A stretch of DNA of 46,781 nt, from positions 1 to 46,781 of the forward strand of contig SVEI01000016.1 of NCBI GenBank assembly GCA_015057445.1, written 5' to 3'. This stretch comes from Lachnospiraceae bacterium. Lineage in GTDB: Bacteria; Bacillota; Clostridia; Lachnospirales; Lachnospiraceae. A program made the position numbers and the translations under genes. Below the pieces are notes generated by a model. The model saw nothing but the letters and a program-made list of their open reading frames with translations. It did not search any database and was not told where the DNA came from. Of this stretch, positions 19,101-46,573 are shown piece after piece; positions within the stretch are counted from its first letter, which is position 1; every line of letters begins with the position of its first letter.

Positions 19101-19649
19101 GTGACTTACAAACACATCGTATCCATCTTCCCCAACTGCAGTATGAGCAACCACTAAGGTAATGTTATCAATCATTCCATCATCATTTAAGTCAGCATCC
19201 TCCCTTAATAAACCTGATGCATTTAGTTGCTCTAAAACCTCTGCCAATAACACCGATGACTTATGGTCAGCATACTCAGCAGCATTTTGTGAAACTGTAA
19301 ACGGCAGAATCCTATCACTTTCTGAATCATACTGTGGAAATATATTAACCAACTGAAACTGACCATATGAAATAGTATCTAGATACTGCTTCATCCCGGT
19401 GTTTACAGATGAATTACCATCAAATAACGCTATAGTAGTCTGGAAATCTTCCATAAAACACTCTCCAACCAAACTACCAGTATGCTCACTGTGGTCTGTG
19501 TCAGCAAAATCCACGAATAAGACAACATTAGCCATGGCTTTATTTGCAGCCATGGCTTTAATGCTTCCTATGTCAGTATGACATAGTCCTACTACTGATA
19601 ATATTAAGGTAAGAAAATATGCAACTAATTTGTTTAGCTTTATCTTCAT
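16101..19649 (-). CDS. Secreted M6-family metalloprotease with six ChW repeats
   Basis: An extracellular zinc protease of 1182 residues. A signal peptide (about 1-35, charged start then LVAYFLTLILSVVGL) precedes the M6 (immune inhibitor A-type) domain. The zinc motif HEFMHTLGYPD carries H221, E222, H225 and D231, matching HExxHxxGxxD. Residues about 460-790 look like a beta-propeller-like module with repeated short strands. A glycine/serine-rich linker leads to six clostridial hydrophobic W (ChW) repeats (about 824-971 and 1016-1158), which probably bind the cell wall or ligands. The start has GGGAGG upstream, only 12 bases after the stop of a glycosyltransferase, so it appears to be the last gene of that operon. 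The substrate is unknown. Confidence 0.88.
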   Translation of the reverse strand: MKIKLNKLVAYFLTLILSVVGLCHTDIGSIKAMAANKAMANVVLFVDFADTDHSEHTGSLVGECFMEDFQTTIALFDGNSSVNTGMKQYLDTISYGQFQLVNIFPQYDSESDRILPFTVSQNAAEYADHKSSVLLAEVLEQLNASGLLREDADLNDDGMIDNITLVVAHTAVGEDGYDVFVSHKSSVGGAIDVGNLKANNYNLVTESGAYLGLQQSGLLIHEFMHTLGYPDLYKVGASSDSLATPVGLWDVMASNTYRLQYPLAYLRAYYTGWFSIPTIEEDVKGYTIYAPTATDSTTKDRQALILKTEYSDSEFFVVEYRHTDQEYMSTKYDNYVYGSGLIIYRVNTKQEKNMAGSTDLIYVFRPGDYYDSNGNEAGLGDIEKSFLSAESGRTSYGSSDYEATLSEGAITYSDGTNSGIVISNVGSATGDTITFDVSFGDGGESIGGFWNTESEKELSELASLDSCMDNNGNIYLVAGSTVATATGSRNYFDVYNYNRDNGWNQIGSSVSVNGGYHKIVKSGNDIYVACSDYSNTRVNLYKYNNGWEKVFTSSYLADEFDVVCDGGKIYIAYNTPYGSGTSSLYCEAYSSSGNTSYGLADSGQYLCNPSISIHNGVPVVLSRDVFADNKIVAKKYNIASNQWQQLGGELYGDAYCSKVNKDVVYLMKNGDGKGNYDGSHVYSLDLNASQLTWQQLGTNTFTDNSAVPMSMFFHGDVVYITYQNGEVTSQDVYVKTLVNNKWKMVGTKVTRDGILAMSGNIYDQMIYLVYGNKTSGITIKSHQYEEDADGNASGGSGSESGGNTGGNTGDDSGDNTAIPFEAPNINISYRTHIQTYGWEGDVADKRTWKSNGAMSGTSGKAKRLEGINIFVDSATTCEELDLGIQYTTHCQSYGWLPWSADGDMNGTEGEAKRLEAIKIQLTGKHVDYYDVYYRVHAQTYGWLGWAKNGDPAGTAGYGKRLEGIQIVVVKKGEDILNNMGGITSNRPESFLAKEGKSPVVNYPDTSNTNPIVPGAEDVNVAYRIHVQSYGWQAWKYNGGMSGTSGKAKRLEGINIELRNRDCKGDIVYTTHVQSYGWQGQLDNQSTWKKNGQMSGTSGEAKRLEAICINLTGEMNLKYDIYYRVHAQSYGWLGWTKNGAPAGTAGYGKRLEGIQIVLVPKGGDSPSDYKGIKSQNSKAYIEQ
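16170..17180 (-). repeat. Coding repeats: two triads of ChW modules
   Basis: The DNA encodes six ~45-residue modules of the form YRxHxQxYGW...GxxAGTxGxxKRLEGIxI. Modules 1 and 4 (SGKAKRLEGINI), 2 and 5 (GEAKRLEAI) and 3 and 6 (AGYGKRLEGIQIV) are most alike, so a three-module unit was duplicated. A ~45-residue linker separates the triads. Confidence 0.85.
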
Positions 19650-24341: not shown

Positions 24342-25289
24342 CTACTTTACAATCTTATCTGCTATGATAAACCTTGGTCTCTCCTTAGTTTCCATGTAAA
24401 TCTTTCCTACATACTCACCTACTACTCCAATACTCATAATCTGGAAGCCGCCAAAGAAGCACATAAGTACCATAAGAGTTGGCCAACCTGCTACTGTATT
24501 GCCTAGGAAGTATCCTATTACCACATATATCAAAAGTAGCATACTAATTAAGAAAATCAGGAATCCAAAGGTGGTAATAAGTCTTATAGGTTTAATACTA
24601 CAAGAAGTAATTCCATCTATGGCAAATGCTATCATCTTCTTAAGTGGGTACTTAGACTCTCCCGCAAAACGCTTATCTCTCTCGTACTCCACTGTAGATG
24701 TCTTAAATCCTATCATAGGAATTATTCCTCTTAAGAAAAGGTTAACTTCCTTATAGCCCGCTAACTCCTCTATGGCACGCTTGCTCATAAGTCTATAATC
24801 AGCATGGTTATAAACTATCTCCACGCCCATCTTCTCCATAATCTTATAGAAAGCAAGAGCAGTATGTTTCTTAAAGAAAGTATCCTTCTTACGAGAACTT
24901 CTGACACCGTAAACTATCTCTGAGCCATTCTTATACTCTTCAACAAACTTGTCCAACACCTCTATGTCGTCCTGAAGGTCTGCGTCCATAGATATAACTA
25001 TATCCGCGTACTCCTTTGCAGTCATAAGACCTGCCAACAGAGCATTCTGGTGTCCTCTGTTACGAGACAGGTTTACACCGGTTACGAATTCATTTGACTT
25101 GTAAAAGTCATTTATAATCTCCCAGGTTCTATCCTTAGAGCCGTCATTAACATACATAATTCTACTTTCAGAAGAAACTACATTTCCCTTAATCATAGCA
25201 TTTAATTTGGCTGTAAGTCTTTTTGTTGTCTCTGCTAAAACCTCTTCTTCGTTATAGCATGGCACAACTATATATAATATTGGTTCCAT
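24342..25289 (-). CDS. Polyprenyl-phosphate glycosyltransferase, GtrB/CsbB type
   Basis: GT2 enzyme of 315 residues that moves a sugar from a nucleotide donor to undecaprenyl phosphate on the inner face of the membrane. YIVVPCYNEEEVL opens the GT-A fold. MYVNDGSKDRTW, NRGHQNALLAGL and MDADLQDDIEV (the metal-binding DxD-DLQ block) are standard for the GtrB/DPM1 group. Two membrane helices lie near the C-terminus (about 233-258 and 268-290), as in GtrB. GGGAGG precedes the start, 11 bases after gtrA, so the two form a pair in which GtrA is expected to flip the lipid-linked sugar. Confidence 0.88.
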   Translation of the reverse strand: MEPILYIVVPCYNEEEVLAETTKRLTAKLNAMIKGNVVSSESRIMYVNDGSKDRTWEIINDFYKSNEFVTGVNLSRNRGHQNALLAGLMTAKEYADIVISMDADLQDDIEVLDKFVEEYKNGSEIVYGVRSSRKKDTFFKKHTALAFYKIMEKMGVEIVYNHADYRLMSKRAIEELAGYKEVNLFLRGIIPMIGFKTSTVEYERDKRFAGESKYPLKKMIAFAIDGITSCSIKPIRLITTFGFLIFLISMLLLIYVVIGYFLGNTVAGWPTLMVLMCFFGGFQIMSIGVVGEYVGKIYMETKERPRFIIADKIVK

Positions 25290-25300
25290 AGTTTCCTCCC

Positions 25301-25825
25301 TTATTTCTTCTCTGTCTTAAAAGCCCAGAATTTATTGATCAAAAAGTTAACCGGCACGCTGACTACTAAGTTAAATAGCGGTGCGATAAACTCAGATATA
25401 CCAAGTACATCTATCCACAACACTAACAATACACTGCTTAAGAATAATCCCGTAAATGAATATGACACGTAAGTCTTAAGGAGAGATTTCCATATACTTC
25501 TCTTCTCATCTTCTGCCTTCACAAAAACCTTCTTGTTATTCCAGTAGAAAGACCAAAGTACACTTAGCACAAAGGATATGACCTGTGCCACAATGTAGTC
25601 AATCTTCGGAAACAACATAGCCCGCTGGAATAATAGCAAACTGACCGTATAAAGCACATATGATATAAGTGTATTACTCACTCCCACTATCCCGAAGCGT
25701 ACAAACTGCATAAGTGTTTTGAACTTGTCCTCAGATAGCTCTTTATGTGTTACTTTGCAAAATCCATTTGCAATTTTTCTCATAAGTTTTTCTATTAAGT
25801 TGTATGCTTTTTGACCTAGGTTCAT
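25301..25825 (-). CDS. GtrA-family membrane protein (lipid-linked sugar flippase type)
   Basis: The protein has 174 residues. After a soluble N-terminal helix (about 1-38) come four membrane helices with the GtrA pattern: FVRFGIVGVSNTLISYVLY, then SVLWSFYWNNKKVF, and the terminal NFLINKFWAFK. GtrA proteins are believed to flip undecaprenyl-phosphate-linked sugars outward. It is the first gene after the candidate promoter at 25882-25911 and is paired with the GtrB-like gene. A paralogue (28323-28736) shares FGIVGxSNT and NKFWAFK. The N-terminal extension before the first helix is longer than in that paralogue. Confidence 0.88.
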   Translation of the reverse strand: MNLGQKAYNLIEKLMRKIANGFCKVTHKELSEDKFKTLMQFVRFGIVGVSNTLISYVLYTVSLLLFQRAMLFPKIDYIVAQVISFVLSVLWSFYWNNKKVFVKAEDEKRSIWKSLLKTYVSYSFTGLFLSSVLLVLWIDVLGISEFIAPLFNLVVSVPVNFLINKFWAFKTEKK

Positions 25826-25967: not shown

Positions 25968-27134
25968 TTAATCTCTTCCATACAAATCTCTTGTATAAAC
26001 CTTATCAACAACATCCTCTATAGGTGACTCTAATCTATTGGCAACTATAACATCGGATATCTTCTTAAATTCATCTAAATCTTTTATAACCTTAGAATTA
26101 AAGAAGTTGTCATCCTTAAGAGTTGGCTCGTAGATAACTACCTCTACGCCCTCTCCCTTAATTCTCTTCATAATTCCCTGAATAGAAGACTGGCGGAAAT
26201 TATCTGAGTTTGTCTTCATGGTAAGTCTATAAATGCCTACTACCTTAGGATTTCTATCAAGGATTCGCTCTGCGATATGATCCTTACGAGTAGAGTTGGA
26301 ATCAACTATAGCCTCTATAAGGTTACTTGGAACATCACTAAAGTTTGCTCTAAGCTGCTTAGTATCCTTAGGCAAACAATATCCTCCATAACCAAAAGAT
26401 GGATTGTTATAATGAGAACCGATTCTAGGATCTAGACCTACGCCCTCAATTATCTGCTTAGTATTAAGTCCCTTCATCTCTGCATAGGTGTCAAGCTCAT
26501 TGAAATAAGCAACTCTAAGGGCAAGATAGGTATTTGCGAAAAGCTTAATAGCCTCTGCCTCTGTAAGGTCTGTGAACAAAATCGGAATGTCTTCCTTAAT
26601 CGCTCCCTCTGCAAGAAGCTCCGCAAACTTCTTTGCTCTCTCTGACTGCTCTCCAACTATAATTCTAGATGGATAAAGATTATCGTAGAGAGCTCGTCCC
26701 TCTCGGAGAAACTCTGGGGAGAAAATAATATTTTCAGTATTGAATCTTTCTCTTACAGACTTAGTATATCCTACAGGAACTGTGGACTTAATAACCATAG
26801 TTGCATCAGGATTAATCTCTAACACCTGCTTAATAACAGCCTCCACTGAACTAGTATCGAAGTAGTTCTTCTTCTCATCATAATTAGTTGGAGTTGAGAT
26901 AATAATATAATCTGCATCCCTATAAGCGTACTCGCCGTCGGTGGTGGCTTCAAGATTTAAGTCTTTGTTTGCAAGATAGTCTTCTATTTCCTTATCCATT
27001 ATAGGAGATATTTTGTTATTAATCTTATCTACTTTTTCCTGTATTACATCAACCGCTTTTACTTGATTATGTTGTGCAAGTAGAATTGCATTTGAAAGGC
27101 CTACATAGCCTGTACCTGCTACTGCGATTTTCAT
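25968..27134 (-). CDS. ugd: UDP-glucose 6-dehydrogenase
   Basis: Oxidises UDP-glucose to UDP-glucuronate with two NAD+. The 388-residue length is typical. The Rossmann motif is [10 protein letters not shown] (near 7-16). [18 protein letters not shown] and FSPEFLREG are conserved family blocks, and the catalytic cysteine lies in YGGYCLPKD (near 250). The C-terminal domain with [16 protein letters not shown] is intact. AGGAGG precedes the ATG. It is the last gene before a terminator. It could supply glucuronate for the surface polymer; a related UDP-sugar substrate is possible but less likely. Confidence 0.92.
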
Positions 27135-27209
27135 ATATATTCCTCCTAAACAACTAACCGTGTGATAACATATATTAAAACATTCAGTCCACCAATGAAG
27201 ATTATATCA

Positions 27210-28304
27210 CTAGTTAAACCCATTAATTGCCTCTATAACGTAATCCTGCTCAGAAGCTGACATACCATTATAAAGTGGAATTGACAAAACTGTATTTGCA
27301 TATTTCTCCGTAATAGGGAAGTCACCCTCTCTAAAACCAAGGTAAGAGTATGCCTCTGACAGATGTGGTGGTATAGGATAATGAATAATTGTGCCTATCT
27401 CTTTGTTGTTTAGGTACTCTATAAGTTCTTCTCTTCTATCACACTTAATTACATATTGATGCCACACTGTTGTAGCTTTATCTCTTATGGTTGGCAAAAT
27501 AATATTATTGTTATTAAGCTCTGAAGTATATCTGTTGCATATGTGTTCTCTCTCTGCGGTGAGTTCCTTTATGTGACTTAGTCTTACTCTAAGCAATCCT
27601 GCCTGCAACTCATCTAATCTAGAATTTGCGCCAACTACCTTGTTGTAGTATCTCTTTTCACTACCGTAATTACGCAATACTCTCATCTCGTCGGCAATTT
27701 TTTCGTCATCTGTAACAATTGCACCACCATCACCAAAGCCACCAACATTCTTTGATGGATAGAAAGAAAAACATCCTATATCACCAAATGTACCTGTTAT
27801 TTTGCCATCATACATAGCTCCGTGTGACTGAGCGCAATCCTCTACCACTCGAAGGTTATATTTTTTTGCTAAAGCCATAATATCGTCCATTTTAGTCGCC
27901 TGTCCATATAGATGAACAACCAAAATAGCCTTCGTTTTTTCAGTTATCTTCTCCTCTATTTTTGTGGTGTCCATATTAAAGTACTCATCTGGTTCTACAA
28001 AGACAGGAGTAGCTCCATTCATGGTAATACCCATAACGCTTGCTATGTAGGTATTTCCCTGAACCAAAACTTCATCACCTTTACCAATTCCCAGTGCTCG
28101 AAAAGCTAGCCACAAAGCATCTAATCCACTTGCCAATCCTACACAGTACTTTGCTCCAACAAATGTGGCAAACTCTTCTTCAAAAGCCTTAACCTCATTA
28201 CCTAAAACATACCATCCTGAACGAAGAACCTCTATGGCCTTTTTCTCGAATTCCTCCTGATAAAGCTCGAAGCCTCTATCTAATCTATTTGGCATTATCT
28301 TCAT
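27210..28304 (-). CDS. DegT/DnrJ/EryC1-family sugar aminotransferase (FdtB/QdtB-like)
   Basis: PLP enzyme that aminates a nucleotide-linked keto sugar. The 364-residue length is typical. VLGNEVKAFEEEFA, then ASGLDALWLAFRALG, VEDCAQSHGA and FSFYPSKNVGGFGDGGA are family hallmarks; the lysine in PSKN (near 185) carries the cofactor. NSRLDELQAG and the late YPIPPH segment are also typical. With the FdtA-like ketoisomerase in the same cluster it would give a dTDP-3-amino-3,6-dideoxyhexose (inference). I chose the ATG at 28304, which has GAGGTG about 8 bases upstream; an in-frame GTG at 28319 overlaps that site. gtrA ends 18 bases before it. Confidence 0.9.
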   Translation of the reverse strand: MKIMPNRLDRGFELYQEEFEKKAIEVLRSGWYVLGNEVKAFEEEFATFVGAKYCVGLASGLDALWLAFRALGIGKGDEVLVQGNTYIASVMGITMNGATPVFVEPDEYFNMDTTKIEEKITEKTKAILVVHLYGQATKMDDIMALAKKYNLRVVEDCAQSHGAMYDGKITGTFGDIGCFSFYPSKNVGGFGDGGAIVTDDEKIADEMRVLRNYGSEKRYYNKVVGANSRLDELQAGLLRVRLSHIKELTAEREHICNRYTSELNNNNIILPTIRDKATTVWHQYVIKCDRREELIEYLNNKEIGTIIHYPIPPHLSEAYSYLGFREGDFPITEKYANTVLSIPLYNGMSASEQDYVIEAINGFN

Positions 28305-28322
28305 GTTAGTGCACCTCACAAA

Positions 28323-28736
28323 TTACTTTTTTTCTTTAAATGCCCAAAATTTATTAAGCACAAAATTTATAGGCACTGTAATCACTAGTTTTAGCAGTGG
28401 AGCAATGTATTCTGATATACCAATCAAATCTACCAACACTACCAATAAAATTAAAGAAATCACATAGCTTCCACCATACGAGGCAAAAACCTTCATGAAA
28501 CTTTTCAGTTTACTCACATTTTCTGAAACTTTAAATACGTGTTTACTATTCCAGTAGTATGCATTAAATACACTGACAACAAATCCTATCACATTCGCTA
28601 CAATATAATTAATACCGAAAAACACCAAAATATAATATACTACTAATGAAATTATGGTATTTGACATTCCAACAATACCAAATTTGATAAATTGTATTGC
28701 GCTCTTAGCTACCTCTTTTTTTGTATCTTCTTTCAT
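28323..28736 (-). CDS. Second GtrA-family membrane protein
   Basis: The protein has 137 residues, four membrane helices and a short N-terminal tail. FGIVGMSNTIISLVVYY, NAYYWNSKHVF and NFVLNKFWAFKEK match the GtrA family and its paralogue at 25301-25825. I chose the ATG at 28736 because GGTGGAG lies about 7 bases upstream; an in-frame ATG at 28780 would start inside the carboxyltransferase gene. Its natural partner is probably the GT2 at 33048-33995, five genes upstream, since no other unpaired GtrB-type enzyme is in the locus. Confidence 0.87.
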   Translation of the reverse strand: MKEDTKKEVAKSAIQFIKFGIVGMSNTIISLVVYYILVFFGINYIVANVIGFVVSVFNAYYWNSKHVFKVSENVSKLKSFMKVFASYGGSYVISLILLVVLVDLIGISEYIAPLLKLVITVPINFVLNKFWAFKEKK

Positions 28737-28749
28737 TATATTCTCCACC

Positions 28750-30261
28750 TTATAACGGTATATTACCATGTGGGACAACATTAATTTTCTTTGTATTACT
28801 TAATATTCTTGTAATACAGTCCCTTGTATCCTTAGGAAGAATTATATCATCTATATATCCAAGCTTCGCTGCATGATATGGTGTAGAGAAATTATCTTCA
28901 TATTCTCTAATTTTCTCATTCAGTAACTCTTGATTTCCATCCACCTGTTTTTTATATAGTATCTTAACAGCGCCTTCTGCGCCCATAACCGCAACCTCTG
29001 CTGTAGGCCACGCAAAAACATAATCTGCCCCAAGCTCCTTACTACACATAGCCAGATATGAGCCACCATAAGCTTTTCTTACTAGAATGGTAATTTTCGT
29101 AACCTTAGACTCACTAAATGCATAAAGCATCTTAGCGCCGTGTCGTATTATACCCTTATCCTCTTGATCCTTTCCAGGGAAGAATCCTGGAACATCAACC
29201 AGATTTACTATAGGTATGTTGTAACAATCGCAAGTTCTTACAAACCTAGCAGCTTTATCAGATGCATTTACATCAATACATCCAGCTAAACACTTAGGCT
29301 GGTTAGCGACAATGCCAATAGGATTTCCGTTAACTCGGGCAAAACATGTAATCATATTCTGGGCATACATTTTCTGTATTTCCATAATAGATCCTTTATC
29401 AACAATTCCATTAATTACGTCATACATATCATATGGAGTTCTTGAATTCTCTGGTATGATAGTATCTAATTTCATATCAATTGTTTTTGCTACCTCTGTT
29501 TTTACATATGGCAATTCTCTGTAATTCTGTGGAAGATAATCTAAAAGATTCTTAGCATAACCAATAGCCGCCTTGTCATTAGGAGCACTCATATGGCTAA
29601 CACCACTAATAGTATCATGCATAGTAGCGCCACCTAATTCCTGAGCAGTTACTTTTTGACCTGTAACAACTTCCACAACATTTGGCCCAGTAATAAACAT
29701 ACTACTACTGTCTTGAACCATTATAATAAAATCAGTTAATGCTGGTGAATAGGATGCTCCACCTGCACACGGTCCCATAATAATAGATATCTGTGGGATA
29801 ATACCTGACGACTTTACGTTATTAAAGAAAGTAACACCATAACCAGACAAGGCTCCAACACCTTCTTGAATTCTTGCTCCACCAGAATCATACATTCCAA
29901 CAATGGGAACCATAAGCTCTAAAGCTTTGTTCTGAATATCGATAATCTTCTTGGCATGCATCTCACCCAATGTTCCACCGAAGGCGGTAAAATCCTGTGC
30001 AAAAGCACATACAGTTCTACCATTTACCTTACCATATCCAGTTACTACACCATCACCATCTGGATGCTTTTCACCTACACCAAAATCATTACAACGGTGC
30101 TGTATAAATACATTAGTTTCAACAAAAGTATTCTTGTCAAACAAAAGTTCTAATCGTTCTTTTGCAGAGAGTTTATTCTTCTTGTGCTGTTTTTCTTTCT
30201 TAAGCTCTTCCTCCTGCATAACTGCATTTCTTTTTTGAAGGACTCTTTCTAATTTACTCAT
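28750..30261 (-). CDS. Biotin-dependent acyl-CoA carboxyltransferase subunit (PccB/MmdA type)
   Basis: The 503 residues form both crotonase-fold halves of a beta carboxyltransferase. The first has FAQDFTAFGGTLGEMHA, GMYDSGGARIQEGV and IMGPCAGGASYSPALTDF, where the backbone binds acyl-CoA; the second has VPGFFPGKDQE, RKAYGGSYLAM and AWPTAEVAVMGAEGAV, which binds biotin. The family includes propionyl-CoA carboxylase and methylmalonyl-CoA decarboxylase/transcarboxylase subunits, so propionyl/methylmalonyl-CoA is the likeliest substrate. No biotin carboxylase, biotin carrier or membrane decarboxylase subunit is in the window, so it must borrow partners or work in a different way. It overlaps the upstream CitE-like gene by 8 bases. 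Such a gene inside a glycan locus is unusual. Confidence 0.88.
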   Translation of the reverse strand: MSKLERVLQKRNAVMQEEELKKEKQHKKNKLSAKERLELLFDKNTFVETNVFIQHRCNDFGVGEKHPDGDGVVTGYGKVNGRTVCAFAQDFTAFGGTLGEMHAKKIIDIQNKALELMVPIVGMYDSGGARIQEGVGALSGYGVTFFNNVKSSGIIPQISIIMGPCAGGASYSPALTDFIIMVQDSSSMFITGPNVVEVVTGQKVTAQELGGATMHDTISGVSHMSAPNDKAAIGYAKNLLDYLPQNYRELPYVKTEVAKTIDMKLDTIIPENSRTPYDMYDVINGIVDKGSIMEIQKMYAQNMITCFARVNGNPIGIVANQPKCLAGCIDVNASDKAARFVRTCDCYNIPIVNLVDVPGFFPGKDQEDKGIIRHGAKMLYAFSESKVTKITILVRKAYGGSYLAMCSKELGADYVFAWPTAEVAVMGAEGAVKILYKKQVDGNQELLNEKIREYEDNFSTPYHAAKLGYIDDIILPKDTRDCITRILSNTKKINVVPHGNIPL

Positions 30262-31057
30262 CCAAACAACCCTTTCTTTTTGCTTCTAACTTCTTCTTAT
30301 AATACTCAATATGTGGTCTCTCATATATTCGGTCATTCATATATAACACACCACTATCACACTCATTATATTTCTTAATTATTTCCTCTATTAAGTTATA
30401 ATCCAAGTCATCATATACTTCTCTAAGCAAATCAACTTGTGAAGGATGTATCAACATTTTGCCATCAAATCCCAGTTTCTTAGAAGAAATTGCTGCATTC
30501 TTAAATCCTTCATTATTATGTACATCTGTATACACCGTATCGTAAATCATCTTACCATATGCCTTAGCATAAGTCACCAGCCTACTTTTAGCATATAGTA
30601 GGCTGGTTTCTTCATTTGCACACTCACTAATGGATGAATAATCCTCTGCGCCAAAAGCTATGGCAGTTATTCTCTGATCTGCAATGTATTTATCTACATT
30701 AACAACTCCCATAGGAGTTTCTATCAAACCAATAATATCTTTACTGCATATGGCTGGTATATCATCCGCGCTTTCAAGCTTAGGAAATACGAAACCACGT
30801 ACATTAAAATCCTGCAGCTTAGAGATTTCATATTCAGCCCTGTCAAAATTTAGTCTTACATAGATATTAATACGATTATCATAATTACTCAAAAATTCTA
30901 TGCAATGTGTTAGAGCTGCCTCCTTATCCTCTTGGGCAACCGAATCCTCTAGGTCTATAATAATAGCCTCTGCATCCATTTTTTCTATTTTCTTCAAATA
31001 TTTGTCATAGGAAGGAACAAATAACAGTCCTCTAGCTACGCAATTATTGCTTATCAT
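30254..31057 (-). CDS. CitE-like HpcH/HpaI-family lyase, second copy
   Basis: A TIM-barrel protein of 267 residues from the citrate lyase beta/malyl-CoA lyase group, a little shorter than usual. RGLLFVPSYDKYL, AIIIDLEDSV, VRLNFDR (substrate-binding arginine), LIETPMGV (metal-binding glutamate), AFGAEDYSS (metal-binding aspartate) and MLIHPSQV are the expected blocks in order. Known relatives split or join acyl-CoA and glyoxylate or oxaloacetate. Its start lies inside the end of the other CitE-like gene (14-base overlap). The two are only moderately similar, so they may catalyse different steps or form a heteromer. Confidence 0.85.
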   Translation of the reverse strand: MISNNCVARGLLFVPSYDKYLKKIEKMDAEAIIIDLEDSVAQEDKEAALTHCIEFLSNYDNRINIYVRLNFDRAEYEISKLQDFNVRGFVFPKLESADDIPAICSKDIIGLIETPMGVVNVDKYIADQRITAIAFGAEDYSSISECANEETSLLYAKSRLVTYAKAYGKMIYDTVYTDVHNNEGFKNAAISSKKLGFDGKMLIHPSQVDLLREVYDDLDYNLIEEIIKKYNECDSGVLYMNDRIYERPHIEYYKKKLEAKRKGCLDE

Positions 31058-31931
31058 ACTTCTTTGCTAACTCCACTATCTCTAATACTTTCTCTGCACG
31101 TTTTCTCATAGGTGGTCCTATCATCTTTCCATTTAGCATGGCAACACCAGAACCTGCCTTTGATGATTCTTTAATAGCCTCAACAATGGCCATAGATTTT
31201 TCTATCTCTTCTGGCTCAGGCATAAAACACTCATTTGCATATGAAATCTGCTTTGGATGAATCAACTGCATACCAGCAAATCCCATCTCGAAAGATATCT
31301 TTTCTTCCTTTACAAAGCCATCCATATTATCAAGCGCAAGATATGGTGTATCAATTGGTAATACACCTGCCGCACGGGCTGCAAGGGCTATACTTGCTCT
31401 TGGATAGTCAAAAGAACGTGGTGGTTCCTTATGAAGACCTTCTAAGTCATTCAAGAAATCTTCTCCTCCAAAGCATACTGCTATAGTTCTCTTACTTGCC
31501 TTGGCAATATTATACACATTCATAACAGCAGATGTTGTCTCAATAAGTGGCAGGAACTTAAAATGTCCATCGCAAATTCCCATCTCATGCTCATGCTGGG
31601 TAATTAATTTGTCATAAAATACCATATCCTCATCTGTATATATCTTGGTAAGGATAAATCCATTAATATCCGGATGTAATACATGCTTTAAATCCTCAAA
31701 AAGCATGTTACTCTCAATAGGATTAAGTCTAACAAACACCATACGATCCTTAAATGCACCTGTCTCAATATACTCTTTTAGTATAACTCTGGCATCTGCC
31801 TTAAACTCGGCAGGAACCGCGTCTTCCAAATCTATTAATAATGCATCTGCATTACAATTAAGTGCGCTGTCTATAAATTTTTTTCTATAGGCAGGAACGT
31901 ACAACATACTTCTAAGCAAATAATCTCTCAT
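31044..31931 (-). CDS. CitE-like HpcH/HpaI-family lyase, first copy
   Basis: The protein has 295 residues with the citrate lyase beta/malyl-CoA lyase fold. RSMLYVPAYRKKF, ALLIDLEDAVP, VFVRLNPIES, LIETTSAVMN, CFGGEDFLNDL and QLIHPKQI are in the family order, with the arginine, glutamate and aspartate ligands present. No citrate lyase alpha (CitF), gamma (CitD) or CitC gene is near, so a citrate lyase role is unlikely; a malyl-CoA or beta-methylmalyl-CoA lyase-type reaction fits the MaoC neighbour better (inference). I chose the ATG at 31931, with AAGGA about 10 bases upstream; an in-frame TTG lies two codons earlier. It follows the acyltransferase by 7 bases. Confidence 0.86.
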   Translation of the reverse strand: MRDYLLRSMLYVPAYRKKFIDSALNCNADALLIDLEDAVPAEFKADARVILKEYIETGAFKDRMVFVRLNPIESNMLFEDLKHVLHPDINGFILTKIYTDEDMVFYDKLITQHEHEMGICDGHFKFLPLIETTSAVMNVYNIAKASKRTIAVCFGGEDFLNDLEGLHKEPPRSFDYPRASIALAARAAGVLPIDTPYLALDNMDGFVKEEKISFEMGFAGMQLIHPKQISYANECFMPEPEEIEKSMAIVEAIKESSKAGSGVAMLNGKMIGPPMRKRAEKVLEIVELAKKYDKQ

Positions 31932-31938
31932 ACACAAA

Positions 31939-32601
31939 TTATCCTTTCATTCTTAATACTTTGGCAGGATTTCCAACCACAATACTGTTTTCTGGAACAT
32001 CCTTAACTACTACAGCACCAGCACCTACTAAGCTATAGTCACCAATTACTACCTTCTCCTTTATAGTTGCATTACTTCCAATGTGAACACTTTTTCCTAC
32101 ATGAACCCAGGAACCTACAGTCGCATTTGTAGCAATGTGCGTAAACTCATCTACGAAGGTGTCGTGTCCAACAAAAGAATTTCCTAACAATATACAATTG
32201 TGCGAAATAACGGAATCTGGACTTACTTGAGATAAAGGAGCCATAATTGTTCCATATCCTATCTCACTGTAATCCCATGGAACCACTGCTGTTGGATCTA
32301 TGGCTGTGTAATATCTATCCTCTGGTATACCAAGCTTGGAAATCTTCTCATAAACTTCTTTTTCTCTCTGCATACCACCAAAAGCAAGAACAAAGTAATA
32401 ATCTGGATCAGCAAGATATTTTGGAATATCATCTGAAGTTCCTATTACCTTGATTTTCTTTTTTGTTCCAACCTCTGTTCCTACCTCAATTACATCATTT
32501 AAAAATCCAACAACCTCTGCGTCACCTATTCTATCTATAACAGAAGAAGCTATCATGCCTATTCCATTTCCACCTAGAACAATTACCTTTTTTTTACTCA
32601 T
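31939..32601 (-). CDS. Sugar O/N-acyltransferase, NeuD/PglD family
   Basis: Transfers an acyl group from acyl-CoA to a sugar amine or hydroxyl. The 220 residues are a Rossmann-like N-terminal domain (VIVLGGNGIGMIASSV, about 5-85) that in PglD binds the nucleotide sugar, then a left-handed beta-helix of hexapeptide repeats (about 105-215). The presumed catalytic histidine lies in FVGHDTFVDEFTHI, as in PglD. The end, VPENSIVVGNPAKVLR, is standard. GGAGG precedes the start, which overlaps MaoC by 8 bases. With the adjacent acyl-CoA enzymes and the DegT aminotransferase it is the natural candidate for putting an unusual acyl chain on an amino sugar. Confidence 0.88.
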   Translation of the reverse strand: MSKKKVIVLGGNGIGMIASSVIDRIGDAEVVGFLNDVIEVGTEVGTKKKIKVIGTSDDIPKYLADPDYYFVLAFGGMQREKEVYEKISKLGIPEDRYYTAIDPTAVVPWDYSEIGYGTIMAPLSQVSPDSVISHNCILLGNSFVGHDTFVDEFTHIATNATVGSWVHVGKSVHIGSNATIKEKVVIGDYSLVGAGAVVVKDVPENSIVVGNPAKVLRMKG

Positions 32602-33061
32602 AATAGGCCTCCTTCTTCATCAAAACATTTCTTCTAAATCGAATAACCATCTCACCCTTCTGATTAAAGCCTCTTGTCTCAACATATATAATTCCTCTGT
32701 CAGGCTTTGACTTAGATTCTCTGCAAGAAAGAATTTCTGTCTCTGCATAAAGAGTATCTCCTACAAATACTGGCTTCAAATGTTCTACATTCTCATAACC
32801 CAAATTAGCTATAGCATTACCACTGATGTCTGTTACAGTAAATCCAACAACTAAAGAGAATACCAAGGTACCTACTACGAGTATCTGACCATGCTGATTC
32901 TTACTAGCATAATCCGCATTAGTATGAACTGGATGTGGATTCATAGTTAACAATGAGAATAAATTGTTATCACTTTCAAATATAGTCTTTGAAAACTGAT
33001 GCTTTATTATCTCGCCTTCCTTATACTCCTCATAATAATGTCCCATTCTATTTGCTTCCAT
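32594..33061 (-). CDS. MaoC-family hydratase, mesaconyl-CoA hydratase-like
   Basis: Hot-dog-fold enoyl-CoA hydratase of 155 residues. LLTMNPHPVHTNADYA carries the hydratase-2 type active-site region. VVGFTVTDISGNAIANLGY, PVFVGDTLYAETE, CRESKSKPDRGI and VIRFRRNVLM match, from memory, the mesaconyl-CoA hydratase-like subgroup more than R-specific enoyl-CoA hydratases of fatty acid storage. Two ATGs are possible: 33067 and 33061. AGGAG lies 3 and 9 bases upstream of these respectively, so I prefer 33061. It overlaps the GT2 gene by 14 bases and the acyltransferase by 8, so it belongs to this coupled unit. Confidence 0.86.
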   Translation of the reverse strand: MEANRMGHYYEEYKEGEIIKHQFSKTIFESDNNLFSLLTMNPHPVHTNADYASKNQHGQILVVGTLVFSLVVGFTVTDISGNAIANLGYENVEHLKPVFVGDTLYAETEILSCRESKSKPDRGIIYVETRGFNQKGEMVIRFRRNVLMKKEAYYE

Positions 33062-33995
33062 CTTCATCTTCTCCTTTTCCTTTTACTTCATCAAATATAT
33101 ACAGCGGTCTATTTCTGGATGCATCAAATATTCTCCAAATGTATTCGCCCAACACGCCAAGAGTTACCATTATCAATCCAAATGAGAATAGAATTAAAAT
33201 CATCATGGATGACCATCCCATTACTACTATTTTGCCAGCAAGTTTACTTATTAATACATAAAGTGCCCATATTATTGCTGTTACAAAAAAGGCAACTCCA
33301 GTAAATTCCATAAATCTTATAGGTACATAAGAAAAGCCTATTAATGAGTCAATGGATAACTTAATTTTTTTCTTTAAAGTCCAGCGTGACTTTCCTTCTT
33401 TTCTTTCTAATCTAACATATTCCACTATATCGTGTTTAAAGCCTGTCCACAATACTTGTAGTGTAATAGCGGAATTTTTCTCATCCATCAGTTGCAAAAC
33501 TTCCAACACAGACCTATCCATAAGACATATATCAAAGCCCTTTGGTGGCATATTTGATAAGGCAAATTTCCTTACTAACCAATAATACATATTGGCTGCT
33601 GCCTGCTTTGATTTTTTCTCCTGTCTTGCTTTCCTTACTCCTAGTACAACCTTATTGCCACTTTTCCAGCTTTTGTACATATCCACAATCAAAGATGCCG
33701 GTTCCTGAAGATCTGCAGCTTTAGAAACTACGCAATCTCCTGTTGCCAAGCTGAATCCTGCCATTACAGCTGCATGAGACCCAAAATTTCTAGATAATCT
33801 GGCAATTTTGATTTTATCATTCTTGGCCGCAAGCTCATTGAGCTTTTCCCAAGAATTGTCACCCGAACCATCATCTACCATAATTATTTCATAGTCGTCG
33901 ATGTTGGGAATTATTTCCTCCATAAAGCTATTATATAATCTGTCTAAAGACTCAGCATTATAATATACTGGTACAATAATTGATAATTTTGGCAT
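33048..33995 (-). CDS. Polyprenyl-phosphate glycosyltransferase, GtrB type, first copy
   Basis: GT2 enzyme of 315 residues. MPKLSIIVPVYYNAESL opens the fold. MVDDGSGDNSW, RNFGSHAAVMAGF and SKAADLQEP follow; the usual DADLQDP block is changed to KAADLQEP, so the first metal aspartate seems to be replaced. Two C-terminal membrane helices (about 230-255 and 265-290) match GtrB. I chose the ATG at 33995 because GGAGG lies 8 bases upstream; an ATG two codons earlier is too close to it. It precedes the acyl-CoA block directly, so it may load the acylated amino sugar on undecaprenyl phosphate. Probable partner: GtrA at 28323-28736. Confidence 0.86.
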   Translation of the reverse strand: MPKLSIIVPVYYNAESLDRLYNSFMEEIIPNIDDYEIIMVDDGSGDNSWEKLNELAAKNDKIKIARLSRNFGSHAAVMAGFSLATGDCVVSKAADLQEPASLIVDMYKSWKSGNKVVLGVRKARQEKKSKQAAANMYYWLVRKFALSNMPPKGFDICLMDRSVLEVLQLMDEKNSAITLQVLWTGFKHDIVEYVRLERKEGKSRWTLKKKIKLSIDSLIGFSYVPIRFMEFTGVAFFVTAIIWALYVLISKLAGKIVVMGWSSMMILILFSFGLIMVTLGVLGEYIWRIFDASRNRPLYIFDEVKGKGEDEDGSK

Positions 33996-34039
33996 TATCA
34001 TAACCTCCAAATGTTGAATTTACATTATGTTAAATAATC

Positions 34040-34447
34040 TTATGAATTAACTTCTTTAACAAACTCTTCGTAATCTCTTATATATTCTGAAGCATCATAA
34101 TGCTCACTGGCCAAAACCAGCAGTACAGAATCATCGCTAAAATCATACATATCTTTCCAGACCATATTAGGTAAATATATTCCAGTATGTGGTCTGTTTA
34201 AAGTAAAAACTGCTTCATTACCCTTGCCATCCATAACCTTTACCTTGCTATGTCCGGCTACATTTATTAATACAAACTCACTTCTTCTATTGGCATGTTG
34301 CCCTCTAACAACATCCTTATCTGAGCCGTATATATAGAAAATTCGCTTAATGTCAAATGGTACATCCTTCATACCTTCTACAACCACTAGTCTTCCTCTT
34401 TCGTCTCCACGCTGTGTGAAATCTAGCATTTTTACATTCTTATCCAT
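34040..34447 (-). CDS. Cupin-type sugar 3,4-ketoisomerase, FdtA/QdtA/WxcM-like
   Basis: The 135-residue single cupin resembles dTDP-4-keto-6-deoxyglucose 3,4-ketoisomerases. DERGRLVVVEG, FDIKRIFYIYG, VRGQHANRRSEFVLINV, TGIYLPNMVWKDMYDFS and the end YIRDYEEFV are in the family order. The usual active-site pair is RGxHAH; here the second histidine is asparagine (HAN), so the direction or even the activity could differ, although I recall HAN variants in related bacteria. It needs the RmlB product, and rmlA/rmlB are not in the window. Together with the DegT aminotransferase it points to a 3-amino-3,6-dideoxyhexose. AAGGAG precedes the start. Confidence 0.83.
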   Translation of the reverse strand: MDKNVKMLDFTQRGDERGRLVVVEGMKDVPFDIKRIFYIYGSDKDVVRGQHANRRSEFVLINVAGHSKVKVMDGKGNEAVFTLNRPHTGIYLPNMVWKDMYDFSDDSVLLVLASEHYDASEYIRDYEEFVKEVNS

Positions 34448-34467: not shown

Positions 34468-37371
34468 TCATTGTTTAACTGTATTCTTTTTAACAATTAT
34501 AACAATCACTATTAAATAAATAATTGTACTTACTATGCTTATCCACATAGCTACCATATAATCTGTACATATATATTCAATGTTTACATTATGCTGTCCT
34601 TCAGGCAATTCAACACCCATTAGTCCACCATTTATCTTATTTAATTGAACAACCTGACCATCCACACTTGCACGCCAATGTTTATCATAAATAAGTGGCA
34701 CGCATAGCATAGCCTTACTTCCTGTGTCGTTTATTACTGTTGCCGTATATACATCATCTTCTAGTTTTACATTGGATATATTTGTATCTATTAAACTCTC
34801 TCTACCTGATTTGGCTAATCGCTGTAATGTGTTCTCATCTACGCTAACCTCTGTATATTCTAATTCTTCATTTTCCGAATAGAACCCTAACATCAACGCC
34901 GCAGAACGATCATCAATTGTCTCTAAAGCAAGGAAATCATCAGCGTCTAGCTTATTTGAATATAGATATCCAAAAGGCAATGCTTTTAAATCCTCATATA
35001 CGTAAAATCCCGACCCTGAAAAAACTTTTTTGTAATACATATTGTTAGCCTGCTCACTCTTAGATATAAGATATTTTACAGACAATAGCTGATTAACATA
35101 CCTGTCTTTATATGAAACAAGTATATAATTTGGATGTCCAAAGCTAAACGGAATATTAAGTACATTCATAGTTTCTATCAATTCATTAGAGTGGGTTGAT
35201 GAATATGAAGATACACCATTATACCCTTGGGCGCTAGCATCATTGTAAAACTGAGACATATAGGTTTTATTAATCCTATATAAACTACTATCTACCAAAT
35301 TAAGCTTATCTACCACATATTCTGTTCCATCATTGTAATAACTCAAATTGTATAAAGATTTATCAATGGCCTTACGTTGATTTATAACATCATAATTCAT
35401 TACAACCTGTTCTATGCAGACAAAACCTAACACACACATCACAACAATTTTGTAATTGTATGTTTTCTTAATGGTTAAGAGAATCAAAATCACGTTTACT
35501 GCCACCCAAAATATAATCAACTTAGTTAATACATCTGAGTCCATTTTTAGCTTAGGCGCAAATTCTTTTCCGAGAAGATTTAACAGTAAAATCCAAACTA
35601 CAATGAAAGTGTCAGAAATGACCAAAGTTTTATATAAAATTTTATTTTCTTTTTTCTCTATATTATTCCATAACTTCTCTAAAAAACAACCTATAATCAA
35701 AATTATACCAACATTAAAAACCAAAGTCCATCTCAATGTTATTGCCTGGAACTGTATCAATTTACTAGCTAATGGAATCATAACTCCAATAATGCATGTT
35801 AAGAAAAACAACAATACTCTCTTATGATATTTGTTAATAATCAAATAAACGCATGCTATAACAAACAATACACTGGCATAATTTATTGACATTTCATAAT
35901 AATTAAATGTTCCCGTGTAATCATTTCCTCTGCCCCAAAAATCAGTTGATAAAATTCTTCCTAGGAACACCAGCAAGTAATCTATTGTACGTGGTTCCAA
36001 CATTTCTAGCCATGACACCTTCAATGAGCTAGTCCTACTGCTCTGCAAAAAGCTGGCAAGCGCTGGGTAAAGCATGATAGCGCTAATAAAGATTGCTACA
36101 AGCTCCAACACACCAAGTAGAACCACTAATTTAACTATATTTTTTAGTCCAAGTTTCTTATGAATCCCTCGGATAACCAGATATACTATACTAAACACAC
36201 CTATTATATAGGTAAAATAATAACTGCTTCCAGTTAATAAAGCTAAAGGTATAACCATAAACACCAAGCTTTTATCCTTGTCAATTAGCTTTTCTAGGAA
36301 AAATAGTATAGCTGTAAAATAGGCATAAGCTGTAGCAAACCAATAATGCTGTCCCCATAATATAAACCACCCACTGAAAGTCCATAATATGGTACACACA
36401 AGTATGGTTTCTCTTCTAGAAAACATCTTTTTAAAATATGCCCAGGCAAACCCTGATATCCATATAATCTTCAGATATAGAGCCACTAACACTGCCTTTG
36501 TCGGCTCAATTATAAAGAAAATCCAATCAAAAGGATTTGTAAATCTTATAATACCATCACTAACAAATTCTCCCAAACCTTTTTGGAGAGTATATCCAAA
36601 ATTTTCAAACTCATTAACAAACCCTAGACTAAGCAGAAATCTTGGCCAATATGAATCAATAGTATCTCTGCCTATGTCACTATAAATATATACAAAGTCT
36701 CCTCGTATAAACTTTCCATATAAAATACAGAACATTGCAGTTACTATAGTCCAAATTATTAGAAGATCAACATTTTTACCTTTCTTAAGTAAATCACAAT
36801 AAAATTTTCTTATAAGGAGAATAGCAACCATCAATACCAATATTGCTATAACATTACTAAAAGAAAATAACGCAAAGATAACATTGGAATAATTCTCTTC
36901 TACCACGTTTAATGAAAAAAACGGAACCGTTTCCTCCATTTTAGGCATTACATCAATTCTAATAAACTTTATATCTTCTTCTGGTAAATCGAATATTATG
37001 GAATCATCACCTTTAAATGCATTAATCAAAAAACTATCATCCTGAGTAAAATAGCATTTATCATCAGAGTAAAATATTTCTATTGTAACATTCTGATCCA
37101 ATTTTTCTTCAAATGATATACAACCATTCCATAATGTAAATTCCTGGTCTAATGAAAATACAATAAATCCATCATTACCAGTAACCTGATAACTTCCATT
37201 ACTTTCCACAATTTGATTACTCATATAAAACTTGGCATTTTTAGAATCATCATAATCAAACAGAGTATATGGACTAATTTTAACCGTATTTATGCTAACT
37301 AATGTTATAACTAGTGCATACACCAAAATCCATATAAAGTATGTCATTTTCTGGTTTTTATTCGAAGTCAT
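34468..37371 (-). CDS. YfhO-family polytopic membrane protein
   Basis: The protein has 967 residues. One helix (about 9-27) leads to an extracytoplasmic beta domain (about 30-160), then about a dozen membrane helices (to about 670), then a large extracytoplasmic C-terminal part with YDKHWRASVDG and LPEGQHNVNIEY near the end, and a last helix (about 935-960). SDIGRDTIDSYWPR in an early loop and the W..SVDG..V.L..G.H pattern are typical of YfhO proteins, GT-C-like enzymes thought to add polyprenyl-linked sugars to cell-wall polymers (in Bacillus and Listeria to lipoteichoic acid). The N-terminal beta domain is additional to the usual YfhO core as I know it. GAGGAC precedes the start. Confidence 0.82.
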   Translation of the reverse strand: MTSNKNQKMTYFIWILVYALVITLVSINTVKISPYTLFDYDDSKNAKFYMSNQIVESNGSYQVTGNDGFIVFSLDQEFTLWNGCISFEEKLDQNVTIEIFYSDDKCYFTQDDSFLINAFKGDDSIIFDLPEEDIKFIRIDVMPKMEETVPFFSLNVVEENYSNVIFALFSFSNVIAILVLMVAILLIRKFYCDLLKKGKNVDLLIIWTIVTAMFCILYGKFIRGDFVYIYSDIGRDTIDSYWPRFLLSLGFVNEFENFGYTLQKGLGEFVSDGIIRFTNPFDWIFFIIEPTKAVLVALYLKIIWISGFAWAYFKKMFSRRETILVCTILWTFSGWFILWGQHYWFATAYAYFTAILFFLEKLIDKDKSLVFMVIPLALLTGSSYYFTYIIGVFSIVYLVIRGIHKKLGLKNIVKLVVLLGVLELVAIFISAIMLYPALASFLQSSRTSSLKVSWLEMLEPRTIDYLLVFLGRILSTDFWGRGNDYTGTFNYYEMSINYASVLFVIACVYLIINKYHKRVLLFFLTCIIGVMIPLASKLIQFQAITLRWTLVFNVGIILIIGCFLEKLWNNIEKKENKILYKTLVISDTFIVVWILLLNLLGKEFAPKLKMDSDVLTKLIIFWVAVNVILILLTIKKTYNYKIVVMCVLGFVCIEQVVMNYDVINQRKAIDKSLYNLSYYNDGTEYVVDKLNLVDSSLYRINKTYMSQFYNDASAQGYNGVSSYSSTHSNELIETMNVLNIPFSFGHPNYILVSYKDRYVNQLLSVKYLISKSEQANNMYYKKVFSGSGFYVYEDLKALPFGYLYSNKLDADDFLALETIDDRSAALMLGFYSENEELEYTEVSVDENTLQRLAKSGRESLIDTNISNVKLEDDVYTATVINDTGSKAMLCVPLIYDKHWRASVDGQVVQLNKINGGLMGVELPEGQHNVNIEYICTDYMVAMWISIVSTIIYLIVIVIIVKKNTVKQ

Positions 37372-45937: not shown

Positions 45938-46513
45938 TTACTTTCTAAAATCTTTAATTCCATTCCACTTCTGATCTTTGTCAGAAATTGTCAAATCTGC
46001 CTTGGTCATACCTTCTGGCATAGGCCACTTTACACCAATTTCAGGATCGTCCCAGAAAAGTCCACCCTCGTCATTAGCATGGTAGAAATCTGTACACTTA
46101 TAACAGAACTCTGCACTCTCAGATAAAACGATAAAACCATGTGCAAAATTCTTAGGAATAAAGAACTGCTTTTTATTCTCTGCTGAAAGGTGTACACCAT
46201 ACCACTGACCATATGTTGGAGATCCCTCTCTAAGATCTACTGCCACATCAAACACTTCTCCACTTACAACTCTTACAAGCTTATCCTGTGGATAATTAAT
46301 CTGAAAGTGTAATCCTCTAAGCACTCCCTTCTTTGAGCTTGACTGGTTATCCTGTACAAACTGACAATCTATTCCTGCAGCAGCAAAATCATTATAGTTA
46401 TAGGATTCCATAAAATATCCTCTTTCATCGCCAAATACTGAAGGTGTAATAACTTTTAATCCCTCTATTTCACAAGTCTCAACCGTAATTTTTCCATACT
46501 TTTCAATTGACAT
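45938..46513 (-). CDS. rfbC: dTDP-4-dehydrorhamnose 3,5-epimerase
   Basis: Third step of dTDP-L-rhamnose synthesis: epimerises dTDP-4-keto-6-deoxyglucose at C3 and C5. The 191 residues are close to the usual 180-190. VFGDERGYFMESYN, VLRGLHFQ (catalytic histidine), VFDVAVDLREGSPTYG, KNFAHGF and CYKCTDFYH (catalytic tyrosine region) are all present, so it should be active. I chose the ATG at 46513 because AGGAGG lies 9 bases upstream; an in-frame ATG at 46540 precedes that site. It is the first gene after the promoter at 46574-46602. rmlA, rmlB and rmlD are not in the window. Its substrate is the same intermediate that the FdtA-like ketoisomerase uses. Confidence 0.93.
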   Translation of the reverse strand: MSIEKYGKITVETCEIEGLKVITPSVFGDERGYFMESYNYNDFAAAGIDCQFVQDNQSSSKKGVLRGLHFQINYPQDKLVRVVSGEVFDVAVDLREGSPTYGQWYGVHLSAENKKQFFIPKNFAHGFIVLSESAEFCYKCTDFYHANDEGGLFWDDPEIGVKWPMPEGMTKADLTISDKDQKWNGIKDFRK

Positions 46514-46573
46514 TCCAACAGTCCTCCTATAAATTTGCATAATTATCCATATTAGATTACATAATTACTAGTT

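Follow-up and report, generated by a model that had tools for sequence, protein, structure and literature searches.

The window, by which we mean the whole stretch of DNA analysed, is one entire contig of 46,781 b from a Lachnospiraceae genome (G000; 2.68 Mb, 82.4% complete). It contains a block of five genes at 28750–33067 on the minus strand, MaoC-NeuD-CitE1-CitE2-PccB, flanked by GtrB and GtrA. Comparison with related loci makes it probable that this block is a portable cassette for the assembly of an acyl-coenzyme A (acyl-CoA) which serves different amino sugars. Judging from the same comparison we are rather confident that the block builds an acyl-CoA for the acyltransferase NeuD; that the acyl group would be a hydroxy- or ene-dicarboxylyl residue of C4–C6 we consider about an even matter.

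The core of the block was present in all four loci of the close CitE1 family: the window, a contig of a same-genus genome (G031, counted as one locus with L015 from Lachnospiraceae RGIG8543), Allobacillus salarius (L013) and a metagenome-assembled genome (L014, genome G750). G031 has all five genes in the order CitE1-CitE2-PccB-MaoC-NeuD, L013 has four (MaoC-CitE1-CitE2, then RmlB, one further gene outside the family scan, and NeuD) and L014 only the three genes MaoC-CitE1-NeuD. CitE1 and CitE2 are overlapping genes in the window and in G031 and direct neighbours in L013. Identity to the window copy is 62, 65 and 63% for CitE1, 71, 72 and 57% for MaoC and 28, 31 and 37% for NeuD (G031, L013 and L014, respectively), 38 and 40% for CitE2 in the two other loci having it, and 54% for the PccB of G031. 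If one acyl group were shared by different amino sugars, its makers would be expected to stay similar while the transferase and the sugar genes vary, as they do here.

The sugar genes accompanying the block differ between the loci. The contig of G031 is a flagellin locus: it encodes flagellin (PF00669, PF00700), FlgK and FlgL over cut-off and a FliD-like protein below cut-off, as well as PseB, PseI, PseH, PseC, PseG and PseF, all six over their cut-offs. PseG-PseC-PseF run into the block from directly upstream, with PseF overlapping CitE1 by 14 base pairs (bp); PseB, PseI and PseH lie >10 kb away on the same contig. A DesI-like aminotransferase (below cut-off; L011 599–1714, L011 being the G031 stretch) is found about 4.4 kb past NeuD with four open reading frames (ORFs) between, one of them on the opposite strand. 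L013, by eye a capsule locus, has RmlA and RmlB genes that score over cut-off; its DesI-like aminotransferase stays below. In L014 two aminotransferases have PseC as best model, below cut-off, a TviB-like dehydrogenase scores just under cut-off, and the neighbours look by eye like a diaminouronic-acid set. The block is found beside differing amino-sugar genes and so is not tied to a 3-amino sugar. For a sequence-only reading of the window, a failure of the set of MaoC, NeuD, two CitE and PccB to be conserved with the sugar genes in relatives would have counted against it. The comparison did not refute that reading: NeuD and sugar aminotransferases recur in all four loci, the sugar genes themselves changing; the core of the set recurs, but PccB is found in two and CitE2 in three of the four. 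NeuD as the pseudaminic N-acyltransferase of G031 was set aside as a less likely role, as a PseH over cut-off makes it unneeded.

Some further genes were observed in these loci. L011 14979–17241 encodes a LuxC acyl-CoA reductase and a LuxE acyl-protein synthetase, possibly for a second acyl or aldehyde modification in the flagellin locus. Right after NeuD, L013 14794–16772 holds a PALP-fold pyridoxal-phosphate enzyme and a PylC-like ATP-grasp gene, which might add an amino acid to the acyl group. L014 5126–7219 encodes a protein of 697 aa in which a sugar epimerase/dehydratase-like domain is fused to a DegT aminotransferase domain.

We compared the active-site residues of the two CitE-like proteins. 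CitE1 (31044..31937, minus strand) is a CitE-like lyase or synthase, CitE2 (30254..31057, minus strand; PF03328, E = 5.6e-29) a divergent CitE-like protein. All four CitE1 and all three CitE2 retain the barrel residues D36, E38, D39, R70, E133 and D160 (CitE1 numbering), which cover the Glu/Asp Mg ligands, the substrate Arg, the paired Asp and the Glu-Asp motif of the CitE-like superfamily. At the lid position of the alignment, Asp is present in 31 of 33 other relatives but neither protein has it: all four CitE1 carry Gly (Gly274 in the window) and all three CitE2 carry Glu (Glu246), a pattern newly seen here. In a study of the superfamily the lid Asp is catalytic, needed by the accepted mechanism and described as conserved, a malyl-CoA thioesterase cluster with Glu at the lid is the named exception, and in the trimer the lid crosses over to the adjacent subunit (PMC3832036). 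At the E246 equivalents, CitE2 shares the Glu of that thioesterase cluster in 3/3 sequences, a likeness in this residue.

The predicted model of CitE1 matches malyl-CoA lyases and CLYBL best, over its full length including the lid. It shares their fold and all barrel active-site residues at 24–29% identity, but where these enzymes have the lid Asp, CitE1 has Gly and CitE2 Glu. Both proteins stay under the cut-offs of the citrate lyase beta model TIGR01588 (216.6 for CitE1 and 114.3 for CitE2, cut-off 443.4) and of the itaconate lyase RipC/Ccl model NF038242 (140.5 and 101.2, cut-off 375). A family search gave no match to citF in the window, L011, L013 or L014. An ordinary citrate lyase was rejected on the missing citF, the low CitE scores and the Gly lid. 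Acyl chemistry of the propionyl-CoA/glyoxylate type had been suggested from the families, which are as named; since CitE1 is without the lid Asp of the malyl-CoA and beta-methylmalyl-CoA lyase mechanism, this chemistry cannot be assumed.

The Gly lid is not unique to the block, as a Streptomyces plasmid CitE carries it as well. This protein matched 26 plasmid records, from the top rows of which five actinomycete loci were picked (L068, L079–L082). All five contain a CitE-MaoC-GNAT run and a Gly-lid CitE, with one annotated CitE in each stretch, and both GNATs scanned (2/5) have GNAT and SCP2 domains. In the tree the actinomycete Gly-lid CitEs make up a clade of their own (100/99), separate from the block CitE1. 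A single origin of all Gly-lid CitEs was rejected (approximately unbiased test, p-AU 0.011) for a group defined after the tree was seen and with long branches. This suggests that the Gly lid arose twice by convergence, each time next to a MaoC and an N-acyltransferase, and it may be a mark of CitEs building an acyl group for transfer. The actinomycete clusters (L064/L068, L079–L082) share with the block a Gly-lid CitE, a MaoC and an N-acyltransferase in one gene run; they differ in their separate CitE lineage, in a GNAT with SCP2 (in the two scanned) for NeuD and in secondary-metabolism-like surroundings. At L068 17938–26344, L079 6001–12744, L080 5941–12684 and L082 5998–12762 the three genes are accompanied by aminoglycoside-phosphotransferase-like, Ldh-family, LLM flavin and Gfo/Idh genes, in what looks like a secondary-metabolite family. 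At L081 2003–8567, genes for a fumarylacetoacetate hydrolase, an acetaldehyde dehydrogenase, a 4-hydroxy-2-oxovalerate aldolase, a ketosynthase III and an acyl carrier protein (ACP) precede CitE-MaoC-GNAT. In the open literature we found nothing direct on these clusters.

The block is rare and patchy in its distribution. Two exact peptide patterns, narrow enough to make the counts a lower bound, detected at least 7 loci among 84,980 species genomes, three of them close (63–66%; L013, L014 and L015). Searched against 99 relatives, CitE1 had matches in 7 genomes including its own; besides its own, only G031 gave a strong match (2.7e-124), the best of the other genomes being 2.7e-46 or weaker. 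By profile, block-type CitE1 was found in 2/37 genomes of the genus and in 1/397 of the family, 1/291 of the class and 1/398 of the phylum, each time the own genome, in family, class and phylum samples that overlap and all include it. The remaining matches (six in the family, nine in the class) reached ≤221 bits in comparison to 583, and all fifteen lie beside citF. No relative of CitE2 was found in a scan of viral contigs, and tblastn of CitE1 and CitE2 against plasmids gave no record of ≥60% identity.

As a control we used 19 ordinary citE loci from relatives (L003–L005, L008 and L028–L042; the weak L006 and L007, E = 2.6e-4 and 6.2e-4, were omitted, and L005, though a control, entered neither the lid count nor the trees). 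All 19 have citF beside CitE, and none has MaoC, NeuD or DegT within about 3.9 kb, a comparison of unequal flanks, with NeuD some 3.2 kb (L013) or 2.8 kb (G031) and MaoC 2.3 kb (G031) beyond CitE1. With the core present in 4/4 loci of the close CitE1 family, its recurrence exceeds chance. A MaoC adjoins the lyase or is one gene off in 6/8 annotated plasmid loci other than citrate lyase (L058, L061, L062, L064, L065 and L067, not L063 and L066), among them a Haloarcula plasmid that combines a CoA ester lyase with MaoC and an acyl-CoA carboxylase. A CitE near a MaoC is ordinary by itself; the block is set apart by NeuD, the sugar genes and the lid. In Campylobacterales (L016–L018, about 8300–10861) a CitE-like domain is fused behind a part that by eye is acyl-CoA-ligase-like, with the metal Asp and neighbouring acidic residues replaced.

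The other three proteins of the block, all encoded on the minus strand, were assigned as follows. MaoC (32594..33067; PF01575, E = 1e-18) is a single-hotdog hydratase with Asn43 and His48 invariant in 5/5 aligned sequences. The sequence-only reading had likened it to mesaconyl-CoA hydratase. Among NCBIfam models RipB/Ich is nearer (NF038241, E = 3.6e-43; 147.5 bits, under the cut-off of 340) than mesaconyl-CoA hydratase (only 1.4e-17), but the best solved relative is a beta-methylmalyl-CoA dehydratase (8hgn, 1.1e-31), in agreement with the sequence-only reading. By sequence, MaoC resembles the RipB/Ich hydratase without qualifying as an equivalog. NeuD (31939..32601) belongs to the NeuD/PglD/VioB family of sugar N-acyltransferases: it scores 164.7 bits with TIGR03570, over the cut-off of 160.8, and has VioB as best PDB relative (7txp, 3.6e-28). 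The NeuDs of the other loci all score below this cut-off (L013 160.3, L014 153.1, G031 137.9). PccB (28750..30261; PF01039, E = 2e-176) is a biotin-dependent carboxyltransferase of PccB/MmdA type, with 587.9 bits for the carboxyl transferase domain (threshold 22.3) and 699 bits with the mmdA model TIGR01117, under its cut-off of 998.8. It scores 569 bits with propionyl-CoA carboxylases in comparison to about 222 bits with methylcrotonyl-CoA carboxylases, far enough apart for a methylcrotonyl-type PccB to be rejected.

The PccBs of the window and G031 are sisters in the tree (support 100/98), which was built without the Haloarcula row and without L076, whose gene has an in-frame stop. A PccB this close (E≤1e-100) occurs in 8 of 119 further genomes sampled from the family; one of these copies is partial and another has an in-frame stop. 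Neither G000 nor G031 contains a match to methylmalonyl-CoA mutase (PF01642) or another close PccB, whereas G750, whose block is without PccB, encodes 2 mutases and 2 PccBs at other sites of the genome. Because the genomes with a block PccB are without the usual methylmalonyl-CoA enzymes and the genome without it has them, this pattern from three incomplete genomes suggests that methylmalonyl-CoA or propionyl-CoA enters the pathway. G000 also has a 36% relative of PccB in an operon that by eye resembles oxaloacetate decarboxylase (contig C117, L025 5480–10977). The only biotin-carrier domain found in G000 is the free carrier protein of this operon, a likely partner of the block PccB.

In the window the block lies among ten open genes, all on the minus strand, from FdtA (34447) to Ugd (25968). 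Pfam assigned families to all ten (FdtA, GT2, MaoC, a hexapeptide/PglD_N transferase, two HpcH/HpaI, carboxyltransferase, GtrA, DegT and UDP-glucose dehydrogenase), NCBIfam matched eight, all except FdtA and GtrA. With the listed ORF starts the spacing in bp is FdtA-(29)-GtrB-(-20)-MaoC-(-8)-NeuD-(1)-CitE1-(-14)-CitE2-(-8)-PccB-(-32)-GtrA-(3)-DegT-(75)-Ugd, so that adjacent genes from GtrB through DegT overlap or are ≤3 bp apart. The listed starts of GtrB, GtrA and DegT are probably too early, each having an in-frame ATG slightly further in; the PccB-GtrA gap is 13 if the internal GtrA start is taken, in keeping with the gaps under 15 bases of the sequence-only reading. The tight packing of the five acyl genes between GtrB and GtrA, together with FdtA and DegT, thereby holds by ORFs, Pfam, spacing and mostly NCBIfam.

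FdtA (34040..34447, minus strand; PF05523, E = 3.3e-45, 153.5 bits over a threshold of 23) is a dTDP-4-keto-6-deoxyhexose 3,4-ketoisomerase of FdtA/QdtA type; its best PDB relatives are an FdtA-domain protein, QdtA and FdtA (best E = 6.7e-34). The DegT-family nucleotide-sugar aminotransferase (27210..28319, minus strand; PF01041, E = 1.1e-113) is QdtB-like, its best solved relative being QdtB (3frk, 6.8e-121, 407 bits), which we take to be a 3-aminotransferase by function. RmlC (45938..46540, minus strand; TIGR01221, 250.5 bits, cut-off 155.75) in the same locus points to dTDP-4-keto-6-deoxyglucose metabolism. Because of the matches of FdtA, the QdtB-like DegT, the VioB-like NeuD and RmlC, the window acceptor is likely a dTDP-3-amino-3,6-dideoxyhexose. 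The acceptor named by the sequence-only reading is thus likely for the window but not general, since the other loci have other amino-sugar genes.

GtrB (33048..34010, minus strand; PF00535), a GtrB-like GT2 and putative undecaprenyl-phosphate sugar transferase whose start is probably 15 nt later, scores under cut-off with both PgfS (193 bits) and ArnC-like (150 bits) models in NCBIfam. GtrA (28323..28781, minus strand; PF04138, E = 8.5e-27) is a GtrA-like membrane protein with a likely internal start at 28736. Ugd (25968..27134, minus strand; TIGR03026, 353 bits, over cut-off) is a UDP-glucose 6-dehydrogenase; at 75 bp it is a neighbour and not clearly a member of the block. A YfhO-type large membrane protein (34468..37371, minus strand; PF09586, E = 2.1e-51), 20 bp upstream of FdtA, may be the enzyme of the final sugar transfer. 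The upstream genes also include those for RmlC, a large GT2, a Wzt-like ABC protein, an ABC-2 permease and a methyltransferase. Downstream, a second pair of GtrA and a GtrB-like GT2 adjoins the block (24342–25825), presumably serving another side-branch sugar. The window thus appears to be a surface-glycan locus with an undecaprenyl-phosphate side-branch set. It also encodes a 1182-aa protein with repeated ChW (clostridial hydrophobic W) domains (16101–19649).

We propose that CitE1 would join a short acyl-CoA to a 2-oxo acid of the glyoxylate or pyruvate class, giving a 3-hydroxy-dicarboxylyl-CoA which MaoC would dehydrate, or rehydrate with fixed stereochemistry. NeuD would pass the acyl group to the amino group of a nucleotide-activated amino sugar. 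PccB may supply or remove a methylmalonyl-CoA-type precursor in genomes without another source, using a biotin carrier encoded elsewhere, and CitE2 may be an accessory partner or an editing thioesterase. In the window, the dTDP-3-amino-3,6-dideoxyhexose from FdtA and the QdtB-like DegT would be the acceptor, GtrB would place the finished sugar on undecaprenyl phosphate, GtrA would bring it across the membrane and a membrane glycosyltransferase, for instance the YfhO-type protein, would add it to the glycan. Malyl, citramalyl, mesaconyl or their methyl-branched kin fit best as acyl candidates. The dicarboxylyl class is proposed because a MaoC of the RipB/Ich or beta-methylmalyl-CoA dehydratase type and a CitE of the malyl/citramalyl type both work on CoA esters that bear a further carboxylate, and because malyl amides occur in bacterial polysaccharides. 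That the block makes an acyl group for an amino sugar, as had been suggested, is strengthened by its recurrence in four loci with NeuD and sugar aminotransferases, but the catalytic activities and steps, their direction, the acyl group, the substrate of NeuD and the acceptor are all points that we infer.

Several observations weigh against such a cassette. NeuD-family enzymes usually use acetyl-CoA, and we know of no glycan chemistry for any of the four loci. CitE2 diverges about as fast as NeuD. PccB is missing from 2/4 loci and CitE2 from 1/4; these two are accessory, and the five genes do not make up a single pathway that needs them all. With PseH present in G031, NeuD is not needed for pseudaminic acid and the acceptor there is a guess. 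The assemblies are incomplete (82.4% for G000, 91% for G031), which makes absences soft, and the pattern of PccB and mutase comes from three genomes. Finally, CitE1 lacks the lid Asp that the accepted CitE mechanism needs (PMC3832036).

The missing Asp and the acyl group itself leave room for other explanations. It is possible, if somewhat unlikely, that the product of CitE1 (malyl-, citramalyl- or beta-methylmalyl-CoA) is itself transferred, with MaoC setting or correcting the stereochemistry, resulting in a hydroxy-dicarboxylyl amide like the marine 4-malyl amides. Diaminouronic acids are reported to bear N-malyl groups (4-D-malyl, L-malyl), and Flavobacterium psychrophilum to have malic acid in amide linkage (PMC3210612). 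The acyl carbonyl of 4-malyl is the one that a malyl-CoA lyase would form, and L014 lies beside the diaminouronic-acid-like set; however, MaoC is kept in 4/4 loci, suggesting that dehydration or hydration is needed. Alternatively, CitE1 and CitE2 may assemble into a hetero-oligomer, with the lid of CitE2 covering the active site of CitE1 and its Glu standing in for the Asp, permitting ordinary malyl/citramalyl-type chemistry. The lid swap between trimer subunits (PMC3832036), the overlapping or adjoining genes and the metal and Arg residues kept in both barrels favour this arrangement. It explains CitE2 but not G750, whose CitE1 has Gly although no CitE2 was found in the genome assembly, and the five actinomycete Gly-lid CitEs are likewise the sole annotated CitE of their stretches, which leaves it doubtful. 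The Gly-lid CitEs could also be convergent synthases that form the enolate by decarboxylating malonyl- or methylmalonyl-CoA (from PccB) and add it to a 2-oxo acid, yielding with MaoC a methyl-branched hydroxy- or ene-dicarboxylyl-CoA for an N-acyltransferase, NeuD for surface sugars and GNAT for actinomycete amino compounds. This would explain the Gly lid and PccB jointly; we know of no precedent and consider it rather unlikely.

A leucine-type cluster running in reverse would deliver 3-hydroxy-3-methylbutyryl, the group carried by anthrose: acetyl-CoA and acetoacetate would give 3-hydroxy-3-methylglutaryl-CoA (HMG-CoA) by CitE, 3-methylglutaconyl-CoA by MaoC and 3-methylcrotonyl-CoA by decarboxylation with PccB, followed by rehydration. 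The same trio occurs in catabolic-looking clusters (the Haloarcula plasmid, and L019 with PccB-, MaoC- and CitE-like genes). Rv2498c is reported to cleave (R)-HMG-CoA and (S)-citramalyl-CoA (PMC6689899), and a Shewanella polysaccharide to carry 3-hydroxy-3-methylbutyryl on Qui4N (PMC3210612). The propionyl-type scores of PccB given above and its absence from two loci make this route quite improbable. Even less can be said for a catabolic acyl-CoA hitchhiker in glycan loci with a NeuD adding acetyl only, which we regard as very improbable: outside glycan loci a MaoC is often found close to a CitE-like lyase (the 6/8 plasmid loci above), but the block sits in four glycan contexts with differing gene orders and no citF, with NeuD overlapping or adjoining in three, and by Pfam and NCBIfam none of the ten window ORFs is a CoA transferase or an acyl-CoA dehydrogenase.

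The portable acyl-CoA cassette can be compared with known systems. MaoC and a CitE-like lyase, in some cases with a carboxyltransferase, are also found together in Ict-Ich-Ccl, RipABC and the Rv2498c region, which to our knowledge contain no NeuD or sugar genes. The itaconate and leucine clusters are catabolic; L019 and L058 keep the lid Asp, and the lyase next to MaoC in Azospirillum has Glu. Biotin carboxylase, like CoA transferase and acyl-CoA dehydrogenase, was not found beside MaoC/CitE among the ten ORFs by Pfam and NCBIfam. The anthrose operon of Bacillus anthracis likewise devotes an acyl-CoA enzyme to one sugar substituent; it uses an enoyl-CoA hydratase and is not known to contain CitE or PccB. 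The closest precedent is the viosamine island of Pseudomonas syringae pv. tabaci (vioA, vioB, vioT, vioM, vioS, vioR, acp), which is reported to place a non-acetyl N-acyl amino sugar on flagellin and, like the block, combines dedicated acyl genes with a sugar aminotransferase and a transferase of VioB type (PMC3927599). Its acyl makers, as given there, are a 3-oxoacyl-ACP synthase III, a reductase and an ACP, whereas the block has CitE, MaoC and PccB with CoA; VioS, VioR and ACP were not found among the ten block-region ORFs by Pfam and NCBIfam. Dedicated acyl genes in an amino-sugar locus are already known from both systems, and the CitE/MaoC/PccB set differs. In the open literature, with subscription papers mostly outside the search, we found no description of this gene combination in a glycan locus.

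For many odd N-acyl groups on bacterial amino sugars the structures are known, and we know of no described route to them. The replacement of Asp by Gly in two separate, biosynthetic-looking lineages is a direct lead to a CitE chemistry of which we know no report. A short cassette moving between sugar pathways would make dicarboxylic and branched N-acyl groups accessible to genetics and predictable from sequence.

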